Shown piece by piece: positions 10,252-51,817 of a stretch of 64,000 bases of DNA. The notes under the pieces were generated by a model. It worked only from the letters and a program-made list of their open reading frames with translations, was not told the DNA's origin and did no database searches. Made by a program: the position numbers and the translations under genes. This stretch comes from Burkholderiales bacterium RIFCSPLOWO2_12_FULL_61_40 (GTDB taxonomy: Bacteria > Pseudomonadota > Gammaproteobacteria > Burkholderiales > Burkholderiaceae_C): NCBI GenBank assembly GCA_001770935.1, contig MESI01000017.1, positions 1 through 64,000 of the forward strand, written 5' to 3'. Each line of letters opens with the position of its first letter. The stretch's first letter is position 1.

Positions 10252-10262
10252 TTCTTGTTGCA

Positions 10263-10328
10263 TTTGCTACTGATTTAATAGCTGCTTGCGCATATTCCAT
10301 AAGGGCTGGAGTGCTATTTTGCATATAA
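10263..10328 (+). repeat. Dispersed repeat family 1, copy A
   Basis: tttgctactgatttaatagctgcttgcgcatattccataagggctggagtgctattttgcatataaa; aligns with the other copies; starts 12 bp after the alaS stop. Confidence 0.9.
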
Positions 10329-10380
10329 ACCTGATGGAACACGTCGCCCATCTGCCCATGCCCACCACGGCCTTTCATCC

Positions 10381-11517: not shown

Positions 11518-11550
11518 TCGACCGAGTTGCATATTGCAGTCTTGCCTGCT

Positions 11551-11615
11551 GTTGCTATCTATTTGGTAGCTGCTTGCGCACATTCTATAAGGGCTGGAGC
11601 CTGATTTGATACTGA
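11551..11615 (+). repeat. Dispersed repeat family 1, copy B
   Basis: gttgctatctatttggtagctgcttgcgcacattctataagggctggagcctgatttgatactga; overlaps the apparent TTG start of the next gene. Confidence 0.9.
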
Positions 11616-12160
11616 AAACCTTTCATTGGTGTACTGCAGGGCTGGCCTGGGGGCTGTTGGGCTCCCTGGCCGCACTGGCGGCCGAGCCCGAGCCCGCTAC
11701 GGGGTATGAGGTGCAGGCCTGGGACCCGCGCAAGCCGGTGCCCACCTTGCAGGCGACCGACCTGAACGGCAAAGTCTGGCGCTTGGCCGACTTGCGTGGC
11801 AAGGTGGTGCTGGTCAACTTCTGGGCGAGTTGGTGTGAGCCCTGCCGGGCCGAGATGCCTTCGCTGCAACGCCTGGCGGCGATGCATGCGCACGAGTTGG
11901 TGGTGCTGGCCGTCAACTTCAAGGAGTCCGCCGCCACGGTGCAGCAGTTTGTGCAGCGCACCGGACTGACGCTGCCGGTGTTGCCCGACCCGCAAGGCAG
12001 TGTGGCGCGCGCCTGGGGTGTGGCGATTTTTCCGTCCACCGTGCTGATTGATGCCCGTGGCAAGGTGCGCAGCGTGCTGCGGGGGGAGTTGGATTGGACT
12101 GGGGCGGATGCACAGCGCTTGCTCACGCCGATGTTCAAGCGAGCGTCCTTGCCGCTATGA
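11606..12160 (+). CDS. TlpA/ResA-like thiol-disulfide oxidoreductase (redoxin)
   Basis: 'GKVVLVNFWASWCEPCRAEMPSLQRL' with WCxxC; signal-peptide-like N-terminus from a TTG start. Confidence 0.88.
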   Translation: MILKTFHWCTAGLAWGLLGSLAALAAEPEPATGYEVQAWDPRKPVPTLQATDLNGKVWRLADLRGKVVLVNFWASWCEPCRAEMPSLQRLAAMHAHELVVLAVNFKESAATVQQFVQRTGLTLPVLPDPQGSVARAWGVAIFPSTVLIDARGKVRSVLRGELDWTGADAQRLLTPMFKRASLPL

Positions 12161-28347: not shown

Positions 28348-28380
28348 GGGGGGAGGGTATTAACGGTGGTTAGGTATCAA

Positions 28381-28434
28381 ATAGGCCTGCAGCCCTGGTG
28401 AAATGTGCGGTAGCCGCTATGAAATATATAGCGA
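28381..28434 (-). repeat. Dispersed repeat family 1, copy D (diverged)
   Basis: ataggcctgcagccctggtgaaatgtgcggtagccgctatgaaatatatagcga. Confidence 0.7.
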
Positions 28435-28580
28435 GTCTTTTTAAAGGGGCCAGGCTCGAATTAAAGGTCGGCATCGCACCAGCCGCCCCTGCTCCCACCC
28501 CTCCCGCGTTCACCATTCCCATAAAAACCAGTGAACTCAACCGTTGCGTTGGGAATGTCATGTCGAACATCATTCAAGTG

Positions 28581-28640
28581 TTGCTATTGTTTATGTAGCT
28601 GCTTGCGCACATTCTGCAAGGGCTACAGGCCCAAACAATC
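28581..28640 (+). repeat. Dispersed repeat family 1, copy C
   Basis: ttgctattgtttatgtagctgcttgcgcacattctgcaagggctacaggcccaaacaatc; abuts the dinG-like stop codon. Confidence 0.85.
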
Positions 28641-28641
28641 C

Positions 28642-30795
28642 CTAAGTCCGGCTGTCCCGCCGCTCCAGCCGGTAGGGCGGCAATCCGGCCAGCATGCGCC
28701 GTCCATAGGTCTGCAGCTGCAGGCGTTTGTCGTAGCAAATCACCTGGGCGCGGTCGTCTTCGGTGCGGATGGCGCGGCCGGTCCATTGCAGCAGCTTGAT
28801 GCCGGTGGCCGGAATCACCAGCTCGTTGAAGGGGTCGCGGCCCACGCTGCGCAGCCATTCGGCGCGCGCCTCGTCCACCGGGTCGGAGGGCGGCGCGAAG
28901 GGCAGTTTGGCGATGCACACCGTTTCGCACAGGGCGCCGGGCAGGTCCAGCCCTTCGCCAAAGGACTGCAGGCCAAAGATGACCGAAGGATTGCCGGACT
29001 CCACCCGCGCCATGTGGGTGGCCAGCAGGCGCGCGCGCGACAGGGTGCCCTGCACCAGCACGGCGTCTTTCAGTGTGTAGGGCAGGGCCTCGGTGGCGGT
29101 GCGCATTTGGGCGCGTGAGGTGAACAGCACCAGCGCACCGCGCTGCACCTGGGCCAGGTCGGCCATCAGCTCGGCCACCATCTCGCGGGTGTAGGCCTCG
29201 GCGTTTTTGGGGTCGGTCTGGGTATGGACCACGGTGAGCGTGCCCTGCGCGGTGTAGTCAAAGGGGCTGGCCACTTCCAGCGCGGTCACGTTCGGGTTGT
29301 TGATTAGTCCGGCTTCCCGCAAAAAGTAGTCAAAGCTGCCGCAGCTGGTGAGCGAGGCCGAGGTCAGCACCGCGCCGCGCGTCTGGCTCCACAAAAACTG
29401 ACGCAGCAGGTCGCCGGGGACGATGGGGCAGGCGTGGGCGGTCAGGGTTAGAAAGCTGCTTTCGCTTTCGGCCTGCAGCCACTTGGCCAGAGGCTGCTCG
29501 CCATGCTCCAGCATCAGCCCGGCGGTGGACACCAGGGCGCCCAGGCGCGGCGCCAGGCCGCCCAGTTGCGCATAGAGCTGGGCGCAAAGCACGGCCTGCG
29601 AGGGGTCCTCCTTGGCCACGGCCTTGACGTCCACACCCAGGGCTTCCAGCACCTTGGACAGGCCCGCGGCCTGCGCGTGGATTTGTGTCACCGGCTCGTG
29701 CAGGGCCTCGGGCAAGACGCCGTGGGCAAAACGCAGGGTGCCGTCCTGCCCACCACCGTCTGCATTTTTTCCGGTCTGGGCCCAGACCAGGTCCATGGCC
29801 ATGCGCGCCAGGGTGGTCAGCACGCCCTTGAGCTGGCTGGTGACGGTTTGCACGTCTTCGCCAATATGCAGGTGCAGTTTGCCGGCCACCTCGTTCAGGG
29901 TTTTGGGCAGTTTGTCCAGCCAGCGCAGGTTGGACAGGTCCATGGCGCTGGAAAATTGGTCGAGCGCCACCGCAGGCAGGTGGTGTGCTTCGTCAAACAC
30001 CACCAGGCAGTTGTCCAGGTCGGGCAGGGTCTTCATGCCCAGCGAGGCCAGCACCAGGTCGTGGTTGGCCACAATGACATTGGCCTCGGCCAGCCGGGTG
30101 CGGGCGTTGTAGTAGCTGCATTCCCGAAAACGCGGGCAGTGGCGCGCGGTGCAGGTGTGGCGCTCGGCGGCCACCCCGGCCCAGTCGCGCGGGTCGGGGG
30201 TGTCACTCAGGGTGTCGCGGTCGCCATCCCATTGGCCTTTGGCCAGCAGGTGGGCCATGGACTCGTAGAGGTGGATGCGGCGCTCTTCAATCGCCTCTTG
30301 CGAGGCGGTGGACGGCAAGGCGGCTGCGGGCAGCTCGTCTTCAAACATGTCGTCGCCGCCGCTACCCGTGCCCACCAGGCGCTCCAGCTTGATCTTGCAC
30401 ACATAGCGCCCGCGCCCCTTGGCCAGGGCGTAGGCAAAGGGGGTGTCCATGCTGGCGGCCAGCGCCGGCAGGTCCTTGGTCATCAGTTGCTCTTGCAGGG
30501 CCACTGTGGCGGTGGAGATCAGCACCCGGGTTTTGCGCTCCAGCGCCATGGCAATGGCGGTGCTGGAGTAGGCGGCGGATTTGCCCACGCCGGTGCCGGC
30601 CTGGATGACGGTGATGGCCTTGTTGGGGTGGGGGTGTTCGCCCAGATCGGCCCGGGACAGGGTGGTGGCAATGCTTTGCGCCATGTCGTGCTGGCCTGGG
30701 CGCGCGCGAAAGCCGGGCGTAGCGCCGACCACGCGTTCAAACGCGTCCAGGGCATGGGCGGCCAGGGCTGCGCTGGCGGGTGTTTCAAAAGTCAA
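28642..30795 (-). CDS. dinG: DinG/XPD-family ATP-dependent DNA helicase
   Basis: 'VIQAGTGVGKSAAYSSTAIAMAL', 'LVVFDEAHHLP', 'FGLQSFGEGLDLPG', Fe-S cysteines. Confidence 0.9.
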   Translation of the reverse strand: MTFETPASAALAAHALDAFERVVGATPGFRARPGQHDMAQSIATTLSRADLGEHPHPNKAITVIQAGTGVGKSAAYSSTAIAMALERKTRVLISTATVALQEQLMTKDLPALAASMDTPFAYALAKGRGRYVCKIKLERLVGTGSGGDDMFEDELPAAALPSTASQEAIEERRIHLYESMAHLLAKGQWDGDRDTLSDTPDPRDWAGVAAERHTCTARHCPRFRECSYYNARTRLAEANVIVANHDLVLASLGMKTLPDLDNCLVVFDEAHHLPAVALDQFSSAMDLSNLRWLDKLPKTLNEVAGKLHLHIGEDVQTVTSQLKGVLTTLARMAMDLVWAQTGKNADGGGQDGTLRFAHGVLPEALHEPVTQIHAQAAGLSKVLEALGVDVKAVAKEDPSQAVLCAQLYAQLGGLAPRLGALVSTAGLMLEHGEQPLAKWLQAESESSFLTLTAHACPIVPGDLLRQFLWSQTRGAVLTSASLTSCGSFDYFLREAGLINNPNVTALEVASPFDYTAQGTLTVVHTQTDPKNAEAYTREMVAELMADLAQVQRGALVLFTSRAQMRTATEALPYTLKDAVLVQGTLSRARLLATHMARVESGNPSVIFGLQSFGEGLDLPGALCETVCIAKLPFAPPSDPVDEARAEWLRSVGRDPFNELVIPATGIKLLQWTGRAIRTEDDRAQVICYDKRLQLQTYGRRMLAGLPPYRLERRDSRT

Positions 30796-41473: not shown

Positions 41474-44400
41474 ATGTCTGACACGGCCGCTTTCGAGCAC
41501 AACGGCATCACCGTTGCGCGCCAGCGCTTTTACGAGATTGCCTGCGACCCCCGCCGCAGCGTGGCGGTGGAAGCCTGCGCCGGGGCAGGCAAGACCTGGA
41601 TGCTGGTCTCACGCATGGTGCGTGCTCTGCTGGAGGGCAGCGCCCCGCAAGAAATTTTGGCCATCACCTTCACCAAAAAAGCGGCGGGCGAAATGCGCCA
41701 GCGCCTGCTGGATTGGTTGCTGCAGTTTGCGCAGGCCACCGACGCCACGTTGCGCCAGGAGTTGCAAACCCGCGGGCTCAAGCAAGAGCCCACGCCGGAG
41801 CAGTTGTCCACCTTGCGCCAATTGCACGCCACCTTGCTCAAGAATGGCCGTCCGGTGCAAATCCGCACCTTCCACAGCTGGTTTGCCGCCTTGCTGCGCA
41901 GCGCGCCGCTGGCCGTGCTGCAGGAGCTGGGCTTGCCTACAGCCTACGAATTGCTGGAGAACGATGCCAAGGCCGTGGCCCAGGTGTGGCGCCGGTTCCA
42001 GACCCGGGTGGCCCAGGACGCGCAGGCGCATGACGACTACCTGGCGGCCGTGTCCACCTTTGGCCGCCACCAGGCGCACAAGGCGCTGGAGGCAGCCTTG
42101 TCCAAGCGGGTGGAATTTGTGCTGGCCGACGCGAACGGCGTGGTGGACCGATCGGTGCAAACTTTTGCGCAGCAGTTTCCTGATTTTGCGGGCATGGACA
42201 TGCCGCAAGACCGGCTGGTGCATCCCGTGGTGCGGCAATTGCTGCTGGACGCCGCACGCGCGCTGGGCGCATCCAGCCTGGTCACCTGCACCAAGGCCGC
42301 AAGCGCCCTGGAGCAAGGCCTGACCCAGAACGATCCTGCCAGCGTGTGTGATGCCCTGCTGACCAAAACCGGCACAGCACGCAAGTTCAGCGACAAGCTG
42401 AGCGGCATCGCCACGGTGCAGCAGGCGCAAGAGCTGCTGCTGCGCATGGCCCAGGCGCAGGCCCAGCACGCGGCCTGGCTGCACCAGCAGCGCATGGCGC
42501 GGCTGGTGCGTGGGCTGGTGGACGACTACGCCGCGCTCAAACGCGAACGCGGCTGGATCGACATGGGCGACCTGGAGCGCGCGGCGCTCACCCTGATGAG
42601 CGATCCGTGCTTAAGTGGCTGGGTGCAGGAGCGCCTGGACGCGCGGGTGCGCCACCTTTTGATCGACGAGTTTCAGGACACCAACCCGCTGCAGTGGCAG
42701 GCGCTGAGCGCCTGGCTCTCGGGGTATACGGGGGCAGGGCAGGCGCCCAGCGTGTTCATCGTGGGCGACCCCAAGCAAAGCATTTACCGCTTTCGCCGGG
42801 CCGAGCCGCAGGTGTTCAAGGCGGCCAAGGCCTTTGTGGTGGCGGGCCTGGGGGGCGACGTGCTGAGCTGCGACCACACGCGGCGCAATGCACCGCCCAT
42901 CATCGCACTGGTGAACCAGGTCATGGGCCAGGCGCAAAGCCAGGGCGAGTTTGACGGCTACCGCGCGCACAGCACCGAGTCCCTGCAGGCGGGCCAGGTC
43001 TTCAAATTGCCCCGCATGGCGCGCGAGGCCAAGGACGGGCCCCCGGTTCAGGAAGGTGCCGCCGAGGGCACCTGGCGCAACTCCCTCACCATGGCGCGCC
43101 AGCAGGTCGAGGAAACCCGCAAAACGCTGGAATGCAAGCAGGCCGCGCAGTGGCTGGCCCAGCAGCTGCAAGCGGCGGGCGCGCAGCTCAAGCCCCGCGA
43201 CATCATGGTGCTGGCCCGCAAACGCGAGCGCCTGGGGCTGATGCAGGCCGAACTGGCGGCCCTGCGCATCCCGGCCCAGCAACCCGAAAAGAACGAACTG
43301 GCCGACATGCCCGAGGTGCAGGACCTGGTGGCCCTGCTGGACGTGCTGGTGTCGCCCCGGCACGACCTCTCGCTGGCCCGGGTGCTGAAGTCCCCGCTGT
43401 TTGGCGTGAACGATGCCGACTTGGTGCAACTGGTACTGCGCCAGCGCGCGATGGCCGCGCAGGTGAATAGCGTTGCGAATACAGACACAGCAGGCACAGA
43501 CGCCGCAGGCACAGACGCCGCAGGCACAGACGCAGCAGGCACAGACGCAGCAGGCACAGACGCGAACGCGGACGCGGACGCCCTGCCGGAGTTGGTCGTC
43601 GCCAAGCCTACAGTGACCTGGCTGCAGGTGCTGCAGCAGGCCACCGGTTTGCCCGACGCCCTGGCCCAGGTAGGCCAGACACTCGCTACCTGGAAGCAGT
43701 GGGTGGACAGCCTGCCGCCGCACGATGCCCTCAACGCCATCTACCAAGATGGCGACGTGCTGGCCCGCTACGCTGCCTCCACGTCCGCCAACCAGCGCGA
43801 CGCCGTGCTGGCCAATTTGCGCTCGCTCCTGTCGGCGGCTTTGCAGGTGGACGGCGGGCGTTATGTCACGGCCTATGCACTGGTGCGGGCCCTGCGCGCC
43901 GGCGGCATGGCGGCGCCGGTGCGGGCCGACACCGATGCGGTGCGCCTGCTCACCATCCACGGCGCCAAGGGCCTGGAAGCGCCGCTGGTGCTGCTGCTGG
44001 ACACCGATGGCGAGGCCCTCAAATCCGAAACCATGGGCGTGCTGGTGAACTGGCCCGGCGAAGATGCCTACCCGCGGCGTTTTGTGTTCCTGGCCAGCGA
44101 GTCCCGGCCCCCGGCCTGCGTGGCCGACGCCTTGGCCGTGGAGCAGGCCGAGCGCAGCCGCGAAGAACTCAACGCCCTGTACGTCGCCCTGACGCGCACC
44201 CAGCGCACGCTGGTGGTGTCCAGCCTGGAGCCGCACAGCCCCAACCTGGGAAGCTGGTGGCAGCGGCTGGAAGCGCAGGCCCAGGACGCGCCTTGGCAAG
44301 GTGTGGTGGGTGCCGCGGCCCAGCCGGTGCCGCTGGCCGCAGACCCGCATGCCGAGCTGCTGGTCGACGATTACCTGCTAAAAATACTGCCAAATCGGCC

Positions 44401-44977
44401 TCCAGCCCTTATGGAATATGCGCAAGAAGCTCCTAAATTGGTAGCAAAAGTAAAACCCAAGCCAGGCGATGCGTCGGCGGAAAGTGCCTTGGCGGGGCCT
44501 GCGGACAGCCTCGACTCGCGCATGGGCCAGGCCATGCACCGCCTGCTGGAGTGGGTGCCGCCTGAGGCGGGCGGGGCCAGGGCGGCGTTGTGGTCCCCAG
44601 AGCAGTTGGTCACCGTGGCGCGCGACTTTGTGCTGGAGGCCGAACAGGTGCATGCCGCCAGCCAGATGGCCCGCGCCATCCTGAACGGCCAGGGCGCCTG
44701 GGCGTGGGACAGCCAGCTGCTGGGCTGGCACGGCAACGAAGTGGCCATGGCGCACCGGGGCCGCATGCTGCGCCTGGACCGCCTGGTGCAGCACCGCACC
44801 AGCCAGGAATGGTGGGTGCTGGACTACAAATCCAGCGCACAACCCGAGCAGCAGGCCGATCTGCGCGCACAACTGCTGGCTTACCGCAGCGCCGTGGCAC
44901 AGGCCTACCCAGGCCAGACAGTGCGCGCCGCCTTTTTAACGGCGCTGGGCGCCCTGGTGGAATTGCACCATCCCTGA
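41474..44977 (+). CDS. UvrD/RecB-like helicase-nuclease, AddA-like
   Basis: 'VEACAGAGKTWMLVSRMVRALLEG', 'HLLIDEFQDTNPLQWQAL', 'TIHGAKGLEAPLVLLLDTDG', C-terminal 'RLDRLV..WWVLDYKSS'. Confidence 0.95.
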   Translation: MSDTAAFEHNGITVARQRFYEIACDPRRSVAVEACAGAGKTWMLVSRMVRALLEGSAPQEILAITFTKKAAGEMRQRLLDWLLQFAQATDATLRQELQTRGLKQEPTPEQLSTLRQLHATLLKNGRPVQIRTFHSWFAALLRSAPLAVLQELGLPTAYELLENDAKAVAQVWRRFQTRVAQDAQAHDDYLAAVSTFGRHQAHKALEAALSKRVEFVLADANGVVDRSVQTFAQQFPDFAGMDMPQDRLVHPVVRQLLLDAARALGASSLVTCTKAASALEQGLTQNDPASVCDALLTKTGTARKFSDKLSGIATVQQAQELLLRMAQAQAQHAAWLHQQRMARLVRGLVDDYAALKRERGWIDMGDLERAALTLMSDPCLSGWVQERLDARVRHLLIDEFQDTNPLQWQALSAWLSGYTGAGQAPSVFIVGDPKQSIYRFRRAEPQVFKAAKAFVVAGLGGDVLSCDHTRRNAPPIIALVNQVMGQAQSQGEFDGYRAHSTESLQAGQVFKLPRMAREAKDGPPVQEGAAEGTWRNSLTMARQQVEETRKTLECKQAAQWLAQQLQAAGAQLKPRDIMVLARKRERLGLMQAELAALRIPAQQPEKNELADMPEVQDLVALLDVLVSPRHDLSLARVLKSPLFGVNDADLVQLVLRQRAMAAQVNSVANTDTAGTDAAGTDAAGTDAAGTDAAGTDANADADALPELVVAKPTVTWLQVLQQATGLPDALAQVGQTLATWKQWVDSLPPHDALNAIYQDGDVLARYAASTSANQRDAVLANLRSLLSAALQVDGGRYVTAYALVRALRAGGMAAPVRADTDAVRLLTIHGAKGLEAPLVLLLDTDGEALKSETMGVLVNWPGEDAYPRRFVFLASESRPPACVADALAVEQAERSREELNALYVALTRTQRTLVVSSLEPHSPNLGSWWQRLEAQAQDAPWQGVVGAAAQPVPLAADPHAELLVDDYLLKILPNRPPALMEYAQEAPKLVAKVKPKPGDASAESALAGPADSLDSRMGQAMHRLLEWVPPEAGGARAALWSPEQLVTVARDFVLEAEQVHAASQMARAILNGQGAWAWDSQLLGWHGNEVAMAHRGRMLRLDRLVQHRTSQEWWVLDYKSSAQPEQQADLRAQLLAYRSAVAQAYPGQTVRAAFLTALGALVELHHP
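43490..43564 (+). repeat. In-frame 15-bp tandem repeat, 5 units (gcaggcacagacgcn), encoding (AGTDA)5 within the AddA-like CDS
   Basis: Five consecutive near-identical 15-mers read directly; translated 'TDTAGTDAAGTDAAGTDAAGTDAAGTDANADADA'. Confidence 0.95.
44381..44451 (-). repeat. Dispersed repeat family 1, copy E, in frame inside the AddA-like CDS
   Basis: aaaatactgccaaatcggcctccagcccttatggaatatgcgcaagaagctcctaaattggtagcaaaagt; encodes KILPNRPPALMEYAQEAPKLVAKV. Confidence 0.93.
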
Positions 44978-44986
44978 CAATAGGGC

Positions 44987-46276
44987 ATGAACTCAGAAAA
45001 CAAAATAATTGATGTCGTTGTGATTGGTGGCGGCCCGGCGGGCCTGATGGCCGCCCAGGTTGCGTCTGACGCTGGCCTCACCGTGCACCTGTATGACGCC
45101 ATGCCCTCCGTGGGGCGCAAATTCCTGCTGGCCGGCAAGGGCGGGCTGAACCTGACCCACTCCGAGGGGGCAGATACCTTTGCCGGGCGTTTTGGCGCCC
45201 GCCGCGAAGCCATCTCGGCGCTGCTGCAAGACTTTGACTCGGGCGCCGTGTGCGCCTGGGCGCAGGGCCTGGGGGTGGAAACCTTTGTGGGCTCGTCGGG
45301 CCGCGTATTTCCCAAGGACATGAAGGCCGCGCCCCTGCTGCGCGCCTGGCTGCACCGGCTGCGCCACCCCGCCACGGGCGCCGGTGTGCAATTCCATATG
45401 CGCCACCGCTGGACCGGTTGGGCCGAGTCCGCCGCACGGTCGGCGCCCGCGCACCAGAGCCTGTGTTTTGACACGCCGCAAGGCCCGGTGCAGGTGCAAG
45501 CCCGTGCCGTGGTGCTGGCCCTGGGCGGTGGCAGCTGGGCGCGTTTGGGTTCCAACGGCGCCTGGGTGCCCTTGCTGGCCCAAAAAGGCGTGGCCGTGGC
45601 GCCCCTGCTGCCTGCCAATTGCGGTTTTGATGTCAAGGGCGGCTGGAGTGCCTTCTTTGCAGAGAAGTTTGCGGGGCAACCGTTCAAATCGGTGGCGATG
45701 GCACTTACCACCGCGCAAGGCCAGACGTTCCAGCGCAAGGGCGAGTTCGTGGCCACCGCCACCGGAGTGGAGGGTAGCCTGGTGTACGCCGCGTCCAGCC
45801 TGCTGCGCGACGACATCATCCGCACCGGCAGCGCCACTTTCCACCTGGACTTGCTGCCCGACCTGTCGGCCGAAAAAGTCCTGGCCGAAGTCAGCCACCC
45901 GCGCGGCACCCGCTCGCTATCGAGCCACCTCAAAAGCCGCTTGCACCTGGACGGCATCAAATCCGCCCTCCTGCACGAGCTGCTGCCCAAAGCGGTGTTT
46001 GAAAACCCGGCGCAACTGGCAGCGGCCATCAAGGCCTTGCCCATCACCCTGCAGGCGGCCCGCCCCCTCGACGAAGCCATCAGCACCGCCGGCGGGGTGC
46101 TGTTTGAAGTGCTCTCGCCCCAACTGATGCTGGAGGCCCTGCCCGGCGTGTTTTGCGCCGGTGAAATGCTGGACTGGGAAGCCCCCACCGGCGGCTACCT
46201 GCTCACCGCCTGCTTTGCCAGCGGCCACAAGGCCGGGCAGGGTGTGGTGAATTTTCTGAGCAAAAATAGGCTGTAG
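44987..46276 (+). CDS. HI0933-like flavoprotein (TIGR03862-like)
   Basis: 'DVVVIGGGPAGLMAAQVASDAGLTVHLYDAMPSVGRKFLLAGKGGLNLTHSE', 'GVFCAGEMLDWEAPTGGYLLTACFASG'. Confidence 0.93.
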   Translation: MNSENKIIDVVVIGGGPAGLMAAQVASDAGLTVHLYDAMPSVGRKFLLAGKGGLNLTHSEGADTFAGRFGARREAISALLQDFDSGAVCAWAQGLGVETFVGSSGRVFPKDMKAAPLLRAWLHRLRHPATGAGVQFHMRHRWTGWAESAARSAPAHQSLCFDTPQGPVQVQARAVVLALGGGSWARLGSNGAWVPLLAQKGVAVAPLLPANCGFDVKGGWSAFFAEKFAGQPFKSVAMALTTAQGQTFQRKGEFVATATGVEGSLVYAASSLLRDDIIRTGSATFHLDLLPDLSAEKVLAEVSHPRGTRSLSSHLKSRLHLDGIKSALLHELLPKAVFENPAQLAAAIKALPITLQAARPLDEAISTAGGVLFEVLSPQLMLEALPGVFCAGEMLDWEAPTGGYLLTACFASGHKAGQGVVNFLSKNRL

Positions 46277-46425
46277 CCCGCGTAGATGCTGCGCAAGAAG
46301 CTATCTAATTCCATTTCCATATCAATCCGACATGTTGTTGCATCGCCTTGCCGTGCTACAGCACTGTCTGCGGCTTCGCGCCTAATGTCGTATCGATCTG
46401 AAAATGGAATAAATGGTAGCAAAAG
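46261..46425 (-). repeat. Dispersed repeat family 1, copy G, interrupted by the family 2 element
   Basis: caaaaataggctgtagcccgcgtagatgctgcgcaagaagctatc[TAA-101 bp-TAA]atggtagcaaaag; supplies the flavoprotein stop codon. Confidence 0.82.
46306..46412. mobile_element. 101-bp MITE-like element (family 2), copy G2, flanked by TAA, nested in repeat copy G
   Basis: Element proper 46309..46409; termini ttccatttccatatcaatccgacat / atgtcgtatcgatctgaaaatggaa are inverted repeats with a few mismatches. Confidence 0.85.
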
Positions 46426-49855: not shown

Positions 49856-51817
49856 ATGTCCTATCTCGTGCTCGCCCGCAAGTACCGCCCCCGCAACTTC
49901 ACCGAAATGGTGGGGCAGGACCATGTCGTGCAGGCCTTGAGCAATGCACTGACCACGCAGCGCTTGCACCATGCCTACCTTTTTACGGGTACGCGGGGCG
50001 TGGGCAAGACCACGGTTTCGCGCATTCTGGCCAAATCTCTCAATTGCCAGGGGGTCGATGGCTTGGGCGGCATCACCGCCACGCCGTGTGGTGTCTGTCA
50101 GGCCTGCACCGACATTGATTCCGGTCGTTTTGTCGATTACACCGAGCTGGACGCGGCCTCCAACCGGGGTGTGGACGAGGTGCAAGCGCTGCTGGAGCAA
50201 GCGGTCTACAAGCCGGTGCAGGGGCGCTTCAAGGTCTTCATGATCGACGAGGTGCACATGCTCACCAACACGGCGTTTAACGCCATGTTGAAGACGCTGG
50301 AAGAGCCACCCGAGTATTTGAAATTTGTGCTGGCCACCACCGACCCGCAGAAAGTGCCGGTCACGGTGCTCTCGCGCTGCCTGCAATTCAACCTGCGCCC
50401 GATGGCGCCCGAGACCATCCGTGAACATTTGACCAAAGTGCTGGAAGTGGAGCAGGTCAGCTCCGAGGTGCAGGCCCTGCGCCTGCTGGCCCGCGCCGCG
50501 CGCGGCTCCATGCGTGACGCCCTCAGCCTGACCGACCAGGCCATTGCCTTTGGCTCGGGCCAATTGCAAGAGGCTTTGGTGCGCCAGATGTTGGGCAGTG
50601 TGGACCGATCCTATGTGTTTCGTTTGATTGAGGCGCTGGCACTGGGCGATGGCAAAACCGTGGTCGAAACCGCCGAGGCGCTGCGTCTGAACGGACTGAG
50701 TGCTGCTTCGACCCTGGAGGAGATGTCCACCGTGCTGCAGCGCATGGCAGTGGTGCAGGCCTTGGCGCAGGCTGGAGGCACCAGCACCGCCAGTGTGACC
50801 AATGACGACAGTGACCCGGAGGCGGCGGACACCGCCCGTCTGGCGGCCCTGATGCCTGCGGACGAAACCCAATTGCTTTACAGCATCTGCCTGCATGGGC
50901 GGGGAGACTTGGGACTGGCCCCGGACGAATACGCCGCCTTGACCATGGTGCTGCTGCGTTTGCTGGCGTTCAAGCCCAAAGGGGTGGTGGCCAGCACCGT
51001 GCCGGACAAGGCGTACGCGCCACCGGCTGAAAAAAAAACTCTGATTAGTTCGACCCTGACGTTGGCGGCTGCGGCTGCGGCTCCAGCGCCAGTTTCTTCT
51101 GCCGCGAAGCCTGCAGTGCTCCAGCCGTGGGAAGATGCGCCTGTAGCGTCGATAACTCCCCCCGTGGTTGCCGCTGGAACGATGGTGTCGACTGTGGCAC
51201 CACGGCCCGCGCTGGCCCCACGCATGGCGTCAGATGTTCCGCCAGGCCAGGTGCTGCCGGTACGCAGCGGCACCGGCCCAGCCGAATCCGCACCCAATTG
51301 TGAACAAAATACGGCTCCAGCCCGCATGGAATATGCGCAAGCAGCTACTGAAATTGTAGCAATTCCGGTGCACACGCAGATGGAGAGCCGCGCTGATGCG
51401 GTGGCTGGTGCTGCCGCGCCGGTGCTGCTTCCTACCGAAGAAGGCGATTTCTGGCATGCCACGGTGCAGCAGCTCATCCAAAACGAAGCGATTACCGCCA
51501 TGGTGCGCGAACTGGCCTTGCAGTCGCAGCTGGTGGCGCGTGACACCGACCAATGGATTTTGCGTTTGGAGCGCGAATCGCTGAATCAGCCAGCTACCCG
51601 GGACCGTTTGACCAATGCTTTGCAGGCGGCTGGTTTTGCTGTCAAACTGGCGGTGGAAATTGGCCGCGTGGTCGACAGTCCGGGGCGGCGCAACGCGGCT
51701 GCCGCTGCACAACGGCAGCTGGGCGCCGAGAAGATTATTTTTGATGACCCCTTCGTGCAGTCGATGATGCGGGACTTTGGCGCGAAAATCGTCCCAGGCT
51801 CGATCAAACCCCTGTAG
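49856..51817 (+). CDS. dnaX: DNA polymerase III subunits gamma/tau
   Basis: '[53 protein letters not shown]'. Confidence 0.98.
51302..51366 (-). repeat. Dispersed repeat family 1, copy F, in frame inside dnaX
   Basis: gaacaaaatacggctccagcccgcatggaatatgcgcaagcagctactgaaattgtagcaattcc; encodes [22 protein letters not shown]. Confidence 0.93.

Follow-up and report, generated by a model that had tools for sequence, protein, structure and literature searches.

Rhodoferax genomes contain several hundred dispersed copies of a non-palindromic DNA repeat of about 68 bp, which is patchily distributed across the Comamonadaceae. One of its copies lies in frame within dnaX, and it is rather probable that the in-gene copies of this family are old, that each is maintained by constraint on its DNA sequence, and that the encoded peptides are passengers.

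Repeat copies in the window and in the family

The window was the whole stretch of 64,000 nucleotides that was analysed. A preliminary description had placed a repeat of about 65 bp in frame in dnaX (51302-51366), a copy of the same orientation and reading frame in an addA-like gene (44381-44451), and intergenic copies at 10263, 11551, and 28581. All five were real, with refined bounds of about 68 bp (51297-51364, within the open reading frame 49856-51817, and 44382-44449) and nhmmer starts of 10262, 11550, and 28579; two further copies, at 28369 and 46253, brought the number in the window to seven. The copies and their surroundings were as follows.

10262..10329 (-): intergenic repeat copy, nhmmer E 2.1e-15
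11550..11617 (-): intergenic repeat copy, nhmmer E 3.6e-16
28369..28436 (+): intergenic repeat copy, E 1.2e-11; its 3' edge and the terminal inverted repeat of a RAYT transposon are about 10 bp apart
28443..28630 (-): relic of a RAYT (Y1 transposase) element, 3' end with terminal inverted repeat; 83% identical to L032:2118-2303 across 188 bp
28579..28646 (-): repeat copy inside the RAYT-element relic, nhmmer E 5.9e-13
41474..44977 (+): addA-like helicase-nuclease, host gene; best match TIGR02784 addA (E 2.5e-108, below cut-off), with UvrD helicase and PD-(D/E)XK domains
44382..44449 (+): repeat copy within the addA-like gene, nhmmer E 6.1e-16, peptide approximately ILPNRPPALMEYAQEAPKLVAK; common to G015 and five further relatives
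46253..46320 (+): repeat copy over the end of gene 44987-46276, providing its TAG stop, E 8.1e-11; common to G015
49856..51817 (+): dnaX (DNA polymerase III gamma/tau), host gene; NF005942 above cut-off, domains I-III at residues 20-371 and tau domain V at 528-649
51297..51364 (+): repeat copy within dnaX, nhmmer E 9.6e-17; dozens of relatives have it at this site, on this strand, and in this frame

The dnaX copy lies, as previously described, in the Pro/Ala-rich linker, between the end of domain III (residue 371) and the start of tau domain V (residue 528). The addA-like copy reads as PNRPPALMEYAQEAPKLVAK in the orientation and frame of the dnaX copy. The addA-like protein also contains a short in-frame tandem repeat of GTDAA units (...GTDAAGTDAAGTDAAGTDAAGTDA...), which may be a length-variable tract. 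The flavoprotein-like gene 44987-46276 encodes a protein ending in FLSKNRL, its TAG stop being supplied by the copy at 46253-46320. The region 28369-28646 matches, at 83%, the 3' end of an intact RAYT element elsewhere in the genome (L032), and the terminal inverted repeat GGGGCCAGGCTCGAATTAAA at about 28446 adjoins the copy at 28369..28436 and encloses that at 28579..28646. An Rfam scan of the window detected a tRNA, a TPP riboswitch (RF00059, 19393-19502, +), and a small SRP RNA gene (RF00169, 49675-49771, -) just upstream of and divergent from dnaX, and matched no repeat copy.

The 21-mer core of the repeat had four matches in the window at up to three mismatches, compared with 0.00 expected in shuffles. 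The source genome (G000) comprises 4.99 Mb in 132 contigs, and its closest named relatives belong to Rhodoferax (Comamonadaceae). Throughout this genome, a 12-mer core allowing one mismatch was matched 480 times, against 43 times for a reversed control pattern. A profile built from 32 copies was then searched with nhmmer (threshold E<=0.01) against a 1.93 Mb sample of the genome and recovered 236 copies, the best hit in the reversed-sequence control having an E value of 0.38. There are thus about 450-600 copies per genome, the figure of ~600 being an extrapolation from the 1.93 Mb sample, and they lie on both strands. The profile has sharp edges and spans ~68 bp, (T)TT..AGC.AAAT..GGCT(C/T)(C/T)AGCCC.CGTGGAATATGCGCAAGCAGCTAYYAAAT..RTAGCAA, and contains nearly invariant blocks (TGCG, AGCT, and TAGC, with AGCCC and AAAT also among them), while the copies as a family are roughly 80% alike.

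Among the 251 genomes surveyed, 57 had at least 20 core matches, with up to ~500 in the Comamonadaceae, where species dialects of the core (TGCGCAAGCAGCT, TGCCTAAGCAGCT, and AGCGCTGGCAGCT) were found. Copy number differed sharply between species of a single genus (211 vs 2 and 182 vs 2). RNAalifold analysis of 179 copies gave -0.8 and -0.2 kcal/mol for the two strands with zero compensatory pairs, and the copies in the window folded no better than shuffled sequences. A hairpin or RNA element was therefore ruled out by folding, covariation, and Rfam. The papers searched, also for the core 12-mers, contained no description of the family; one may exist in the paper on the genome of Polaromonas JS666, to which PMC10969869 refers for MITEs.

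Genomic context, reading frames, and host proteins

A purpose-built dicodon gene caller predicted 1732 genes in the 1.93 Mb sample (91% coding). The copies were intergenic in 110 cases, lay over gene ends in 47, and were inside genes in 76, so that they were strongly depleted within genes relative to random placement; they favoured gene 3' ends and convergent gaps. They also avoided clustering, as only 1.9% of neighbours were less than 400 bp apart, compared with 5.3% expected, which ruled out a REPIN/BIME arrangement. The sample contained only four close pairs, of which three were inverted, and pairing of the terminator type is thus not common.

Seventy in-gene copies had coding flanks on both sides. 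The sense frame seen in dnaX was used by 37 of these, one antisense frame by 20, and other frames by 13; the dnaX copy itself is not among the 70, its linker being of low complexity and hence having a poor coding score, and it too lies in the favoured sense frame. With the open frames of intergenic copies as the null, copies with E<1e-8 used the sense frame 25 times where 10.6 were expected (p about 4e-6), and two other open frames were under-used in genes (0 vs 7.5 and 2 vs 7.8 expected). Weak in-gene matches (E>1e-7), such as that near MutL residue 109, may be due to chance and were kept out of the main frame test. Frames and orientations within coding sequences, counted in the 1.93 Mb sample, were thus strongly non-random, as anticipated in the preliminary description. 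Its explanation that a single frame of one strand is open did not hold, however, since the favoured frame is open in 39% of intergenic copies and one antisense frame in 67%. Stop codons filter the insertions, and compatibility of the peptide probably does so too.

The host proteins are core enzymes, including PurL, Pgi, DnaX, AddA, UvrA, MutL, MetG, GluQRS, TrmJ, TrmB, PrmB, DapE, LpdA, AceF, NadE, CoaBC, ThiL, GcvT, and GcvP. Most are metabolic; replication and repair account for 4 of the 40 hosts scanned (DnaX, AddA, UvrA, and MutL). Comparison with solved relatives showed that the repeat can add length, as DapE carries an insertion of ~21 residues relative to 4ppz, adjoining the conserved FAGHTDVVP motif, and GcvT has about 16 extra residues. 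In NadE and Pgi, the repeat instead takes the place of native loop sequence with no added length. One UvrA-type protein (L077:12799-19584, C92) has 2262 residues, which makes it about double the size of the UvrA model, with an in-frame repeat near residue 317.

Orthologous copies and constraint on the DNA

To follow the copies across species, dnaX was compared in 80 named relatives and about 30 others. Examined site by site, the repeat was detected inside dnaX 61 times, always on one strand, with some loci counted twice and some species present in both sets. The main site lies just before a native (V/I)VxxPVRxQxxSR motif; of the 72 Comamonadaceae genes aligned, 39 carry the repeat there, always on one strand and in one frame, and genes without it have native sequence there, for example HRVVGVPVRQQTESR. 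About ten relatives (L144, L150, L152, L153, L157, L168, L174, L177, L179, and L186) carry the repeat in frame a second time, ~50 residues upstream of the main site, where species without a second copy may have a much shorter stretch, such as PWDDAPPGHVL. The addA copy is common to six relatives (G015 and five more) and absent from others. Orthologues carrying the copy at the same position ruled out a recent private insertion in dnaX. The idea of a clean insertion stood for DapE, whereas an insertion that is recent or private did not, the dnaX and addA copies being common to several species; we infer that the dnaX copy originally entered by insertion. The peptide MEYAQAA was not conserved in DnaX of relatives without the repeat: where the DNA repeat was missing, so was the peptide.

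In the 39 dnaX copies, the repeat's own codon was used 334 times against 115 expected. Alanine was encoded by GCT in 39 of 39 and valine at the GTA position by GTA in 28 of 28, both codons being rare in dnaX. Identity at four-fold degenerate third positions was 0.73 in the repeat (chance level 0.41) and 0.56 in the N-terminal part of dnaX (chance level 0.45), and conservation of each position among orthologues followed the profile of the family within the genome (at third positions, rho 0.76); the orthologues behind all these dnaX statistics share ancestry and are not independent.

The closest available relative of the source genome, G015 (~89% DNA identity), shared 13 of 14 syntenic in-gene copies and 6 of 6 other syntenic copies with it. 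Across these copies, about 20 in number and with few intergenic ones scored for synteny, family-invariant positions diverged by 2.7% in genes and 5.2% elsewhere, compared with 14.8% and 27.7% at variable positions of the same copies and 12.6% and 14.9% in their flanks. The contrast between invariant and variable positions was significant in genes (Fisher p 4e-7) and elsewhere (p 2e-5). Because copies are recognised by similarity, apparent conservation is inflated; yet nearly all syntenic copies were found, and the dnaX scores were bimodal. Since non-coding copies showed the same constraint pattern, the pattern cannot be attributed to protein selection. Frozen synonymous sites, together with the slow evolution of family-invariant letters, suggest that individual copies, coding or not, are maintained as DNA and that the peptide is a tolerated by-product.

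On this basis, the copies would have entered genes long ago, mostly at linkers or loops tolerating a Pro/Ala-rich insertion of roughly 20 residues. Stop codons and peptide compatibility would then have determined the surviving frames, mainly the sense frame (...APVEYAQAATKxIA...) and secondarily one antisense frame. Each copy would since have been kept by constraint on the DNA itself (TGCG, AGCT, TAGC, AGCCC, and AAAT), either because the motif is recognised in double-stranded form by a host factor or because biased uptake or transfer favours it, and the dnaX and addA peptides would be passengers of this maintained motif. An uptake-sequence-like or protein-binding role appears most plausible. 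Some observations sit uneasily with maintenance at the DNA level: an indispensable site would hardly be expected to differ so sharply in copy number within a genus, some copies in genes (Pgi and NadE) take the place of sequence and do not add to it, and a small probability attaches to concerted evolution among copies.

Alternative explanations and known repeat systems

The preliminary description had proposed that the repeat can be exapted as a peptide insertion; in a reading of this kind, a MEYAQAA-type peptide would be useful in DnaX or AddA and under protein-level selection. The use of one frame in every aligned dnaX copy, second site included, and the excess of that frame over the open-frame expectation would fit this view. 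However, the residues vary freely (YAQ becoming IAQ, PAR, SAG, etc.) while synonymous letters are fixed, non-coding copies evolve slowly at the same positions, and many species do without the repeat peptide, so that we regard exaptation as highly improbable. Gene conversion among hundreds of copies could instead keep old in-gene copies family-like, as the high copy number and the closeness of every copy to the family consensus might suggest. However, copies of ~68 bp at roughly 80% identity are short for homologous conversion, a dnaX-specific marker (G at position 28) is kept in 38 of 39 dnaX copies compared with 37% of the family, and shared in-gene copies showed no wholesale replacement (2-12 differences over 62-69 bp); concerted evolution is accordingly a very unlikely cause. 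A further alternative, which we consider unlikely without dismissing it, is a selfish element resembling Rickettsia palindromic elements (RPEs) or intragenic REPs, spread by RAYT (Y1/HuH) transposases, with in-frame inserts merely tolerated and similarity reflecting descent and not function. RAYT genes occur in 39 of 41 genomes of the genus, and both RAYT genes of the source genome (2/2) have a repeat copy just downstream, inside terminal inverted repeats (TIRs; GGGGCCAGGYTCRA or GGGGTCAGATTCCAATTA); 3 of 5 TIR ends in that genome adjoin a copy. By a hand tally, RAYT genes were lacking in 2 of 57 genomes with at least 20 copies and in 28 of 194 others (p 0.03), and intragenic REPs in replication and repair genes have been published (PMC3733652). 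In contrast, a pattern search of 61 genus genomes found no excess of TIR-repeat adjacency over control, so adjacency as a general rule, although suggestive in the source genome, was unsupported genus-wide. RAYT genes are also almost universal in the family, with or without repeat copies; their presence or absence is weakly informative, and the transposase link is weak. The missing palindrome, the avoidance of clustering, and position-specific constraint in copies that are old likewise argue against a selfish element.

The specific form of DNA-level maintenance in which molecular drive or selection, acting through biased uptake and recombination, keeps orthologous copies intact, as for DNA uptake sequences (DUS/USS), is one of the less likely possibilities. 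The repeat resembles such sequences in its hundreds of copies on both strands, in one orientation being favoured in the reading frame (PMC2346458), in stable orthologous sites with conservation at the DNA level, as reported for DUS (PMC2397512), in species dialects such as TGCCTAAGCAGCT and AGCGCTGGCAGCT, and in the spacing of its copies. It differs in that the core of DUS/USS is 9-12 bp, whereas the information in the repeat is spread over ~68 bp. Furthermore, at least one copy (DapE) arose by block insertion of the unit and not by point mutation, abundance is patchy within genera, and the few close pairs do not provide common terminator-type pairing; an uptake role is putative.

RPEs are dispersed repeats that have entered numerous housekeeping genes, unrelated to one another, without breaking the frame (PMC10969869), and the likeness proposed in the preliminary description held to the extent that the repeat, too, is part of the reading frame of many housekeeping proteins that are unrelated (70 copies inside genes have coding sequence on both sides). 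Close kinship did not hold: the repeat is ~68 bp compared with ~150 bp for RPEs, shows neither palindrome nor covariation, has about one third of its copies in genes, is constrained at the DNA level at orthologous sites, and belongs to another bacterial class. GTAG/CGTC REPs (Di Nocera 2013, PMC3733652) are high-copy intergenic elements near gene 3' ends, with some intragenic copies, including in replication and repair genes. The repeat resembles them in that RAYT genes are present in the same genomes and a copy can supply a TAG stop. In contrast, those REPs are imperfect palindromes of 20-40 bp tagged GTAG/CGTC, while the repeat is ~68 bp, has no covarying stem, carries GTAG in only part of its copies, and does not form clusters or inverted dimers (BIME/REPIN; 1.9% vs 5.3% close neighbours). 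Rhodoferax, Polaromonas, Acidovorax, and Burkholderia are absent from the main text of PMC3733652. Because no hairpin covariation was found, the repeat belongs neither to the RPEs nor to the classical REPs. Two source-genome elements with a repeat copy beside the RAYT gene recall the 'TIRtron' RAYT elements (PMC3733652), and their TIRs, which start with GGGGCCAG or GGGGTCAG, come close to the GGGGWSAS motif published there; however, the repeat itself is not the TIR, and the adjacency is not general in the genus. Like bacterial MITEs (for example ERIC and RUP), the repeat is short, non-coding, multi-copy, and sometimes in frame in genes, although its profile shows no clear terminal inverted repeat and, empty sites having diverged, no target-site duplication was identified.

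Intragenic REPs, including those in repair genes, have already been published (PMC3733652), and the new part here is the maintenance of in-gene copies at the DNA level. The broadest version of this interpretation, a previously undescribed Comamonadaceae motif (possibly an uptake or chromosome-organising signal) that persists at orthologous sites in essential genes and shapes proteins for DNA reasons, is offered tentatively, as a possibility that falls short of being probable. Peptide exaptation does not follow from the presence of a repeat peptide in a protein; synonymous sites can separate the two. If DNA-level maintenance is correct, a DNA motif would in part set the linkers of DnaX, AddA, UvrA, MutL, MetG, PurL, DapE, and other proteins, so that constraint at the level of the genome would be writing protein sequence, and the repeat would be an accessible candidate for a new system of sequence-specific DNA binding or DNA uptake in a large family of environmental bacteria.
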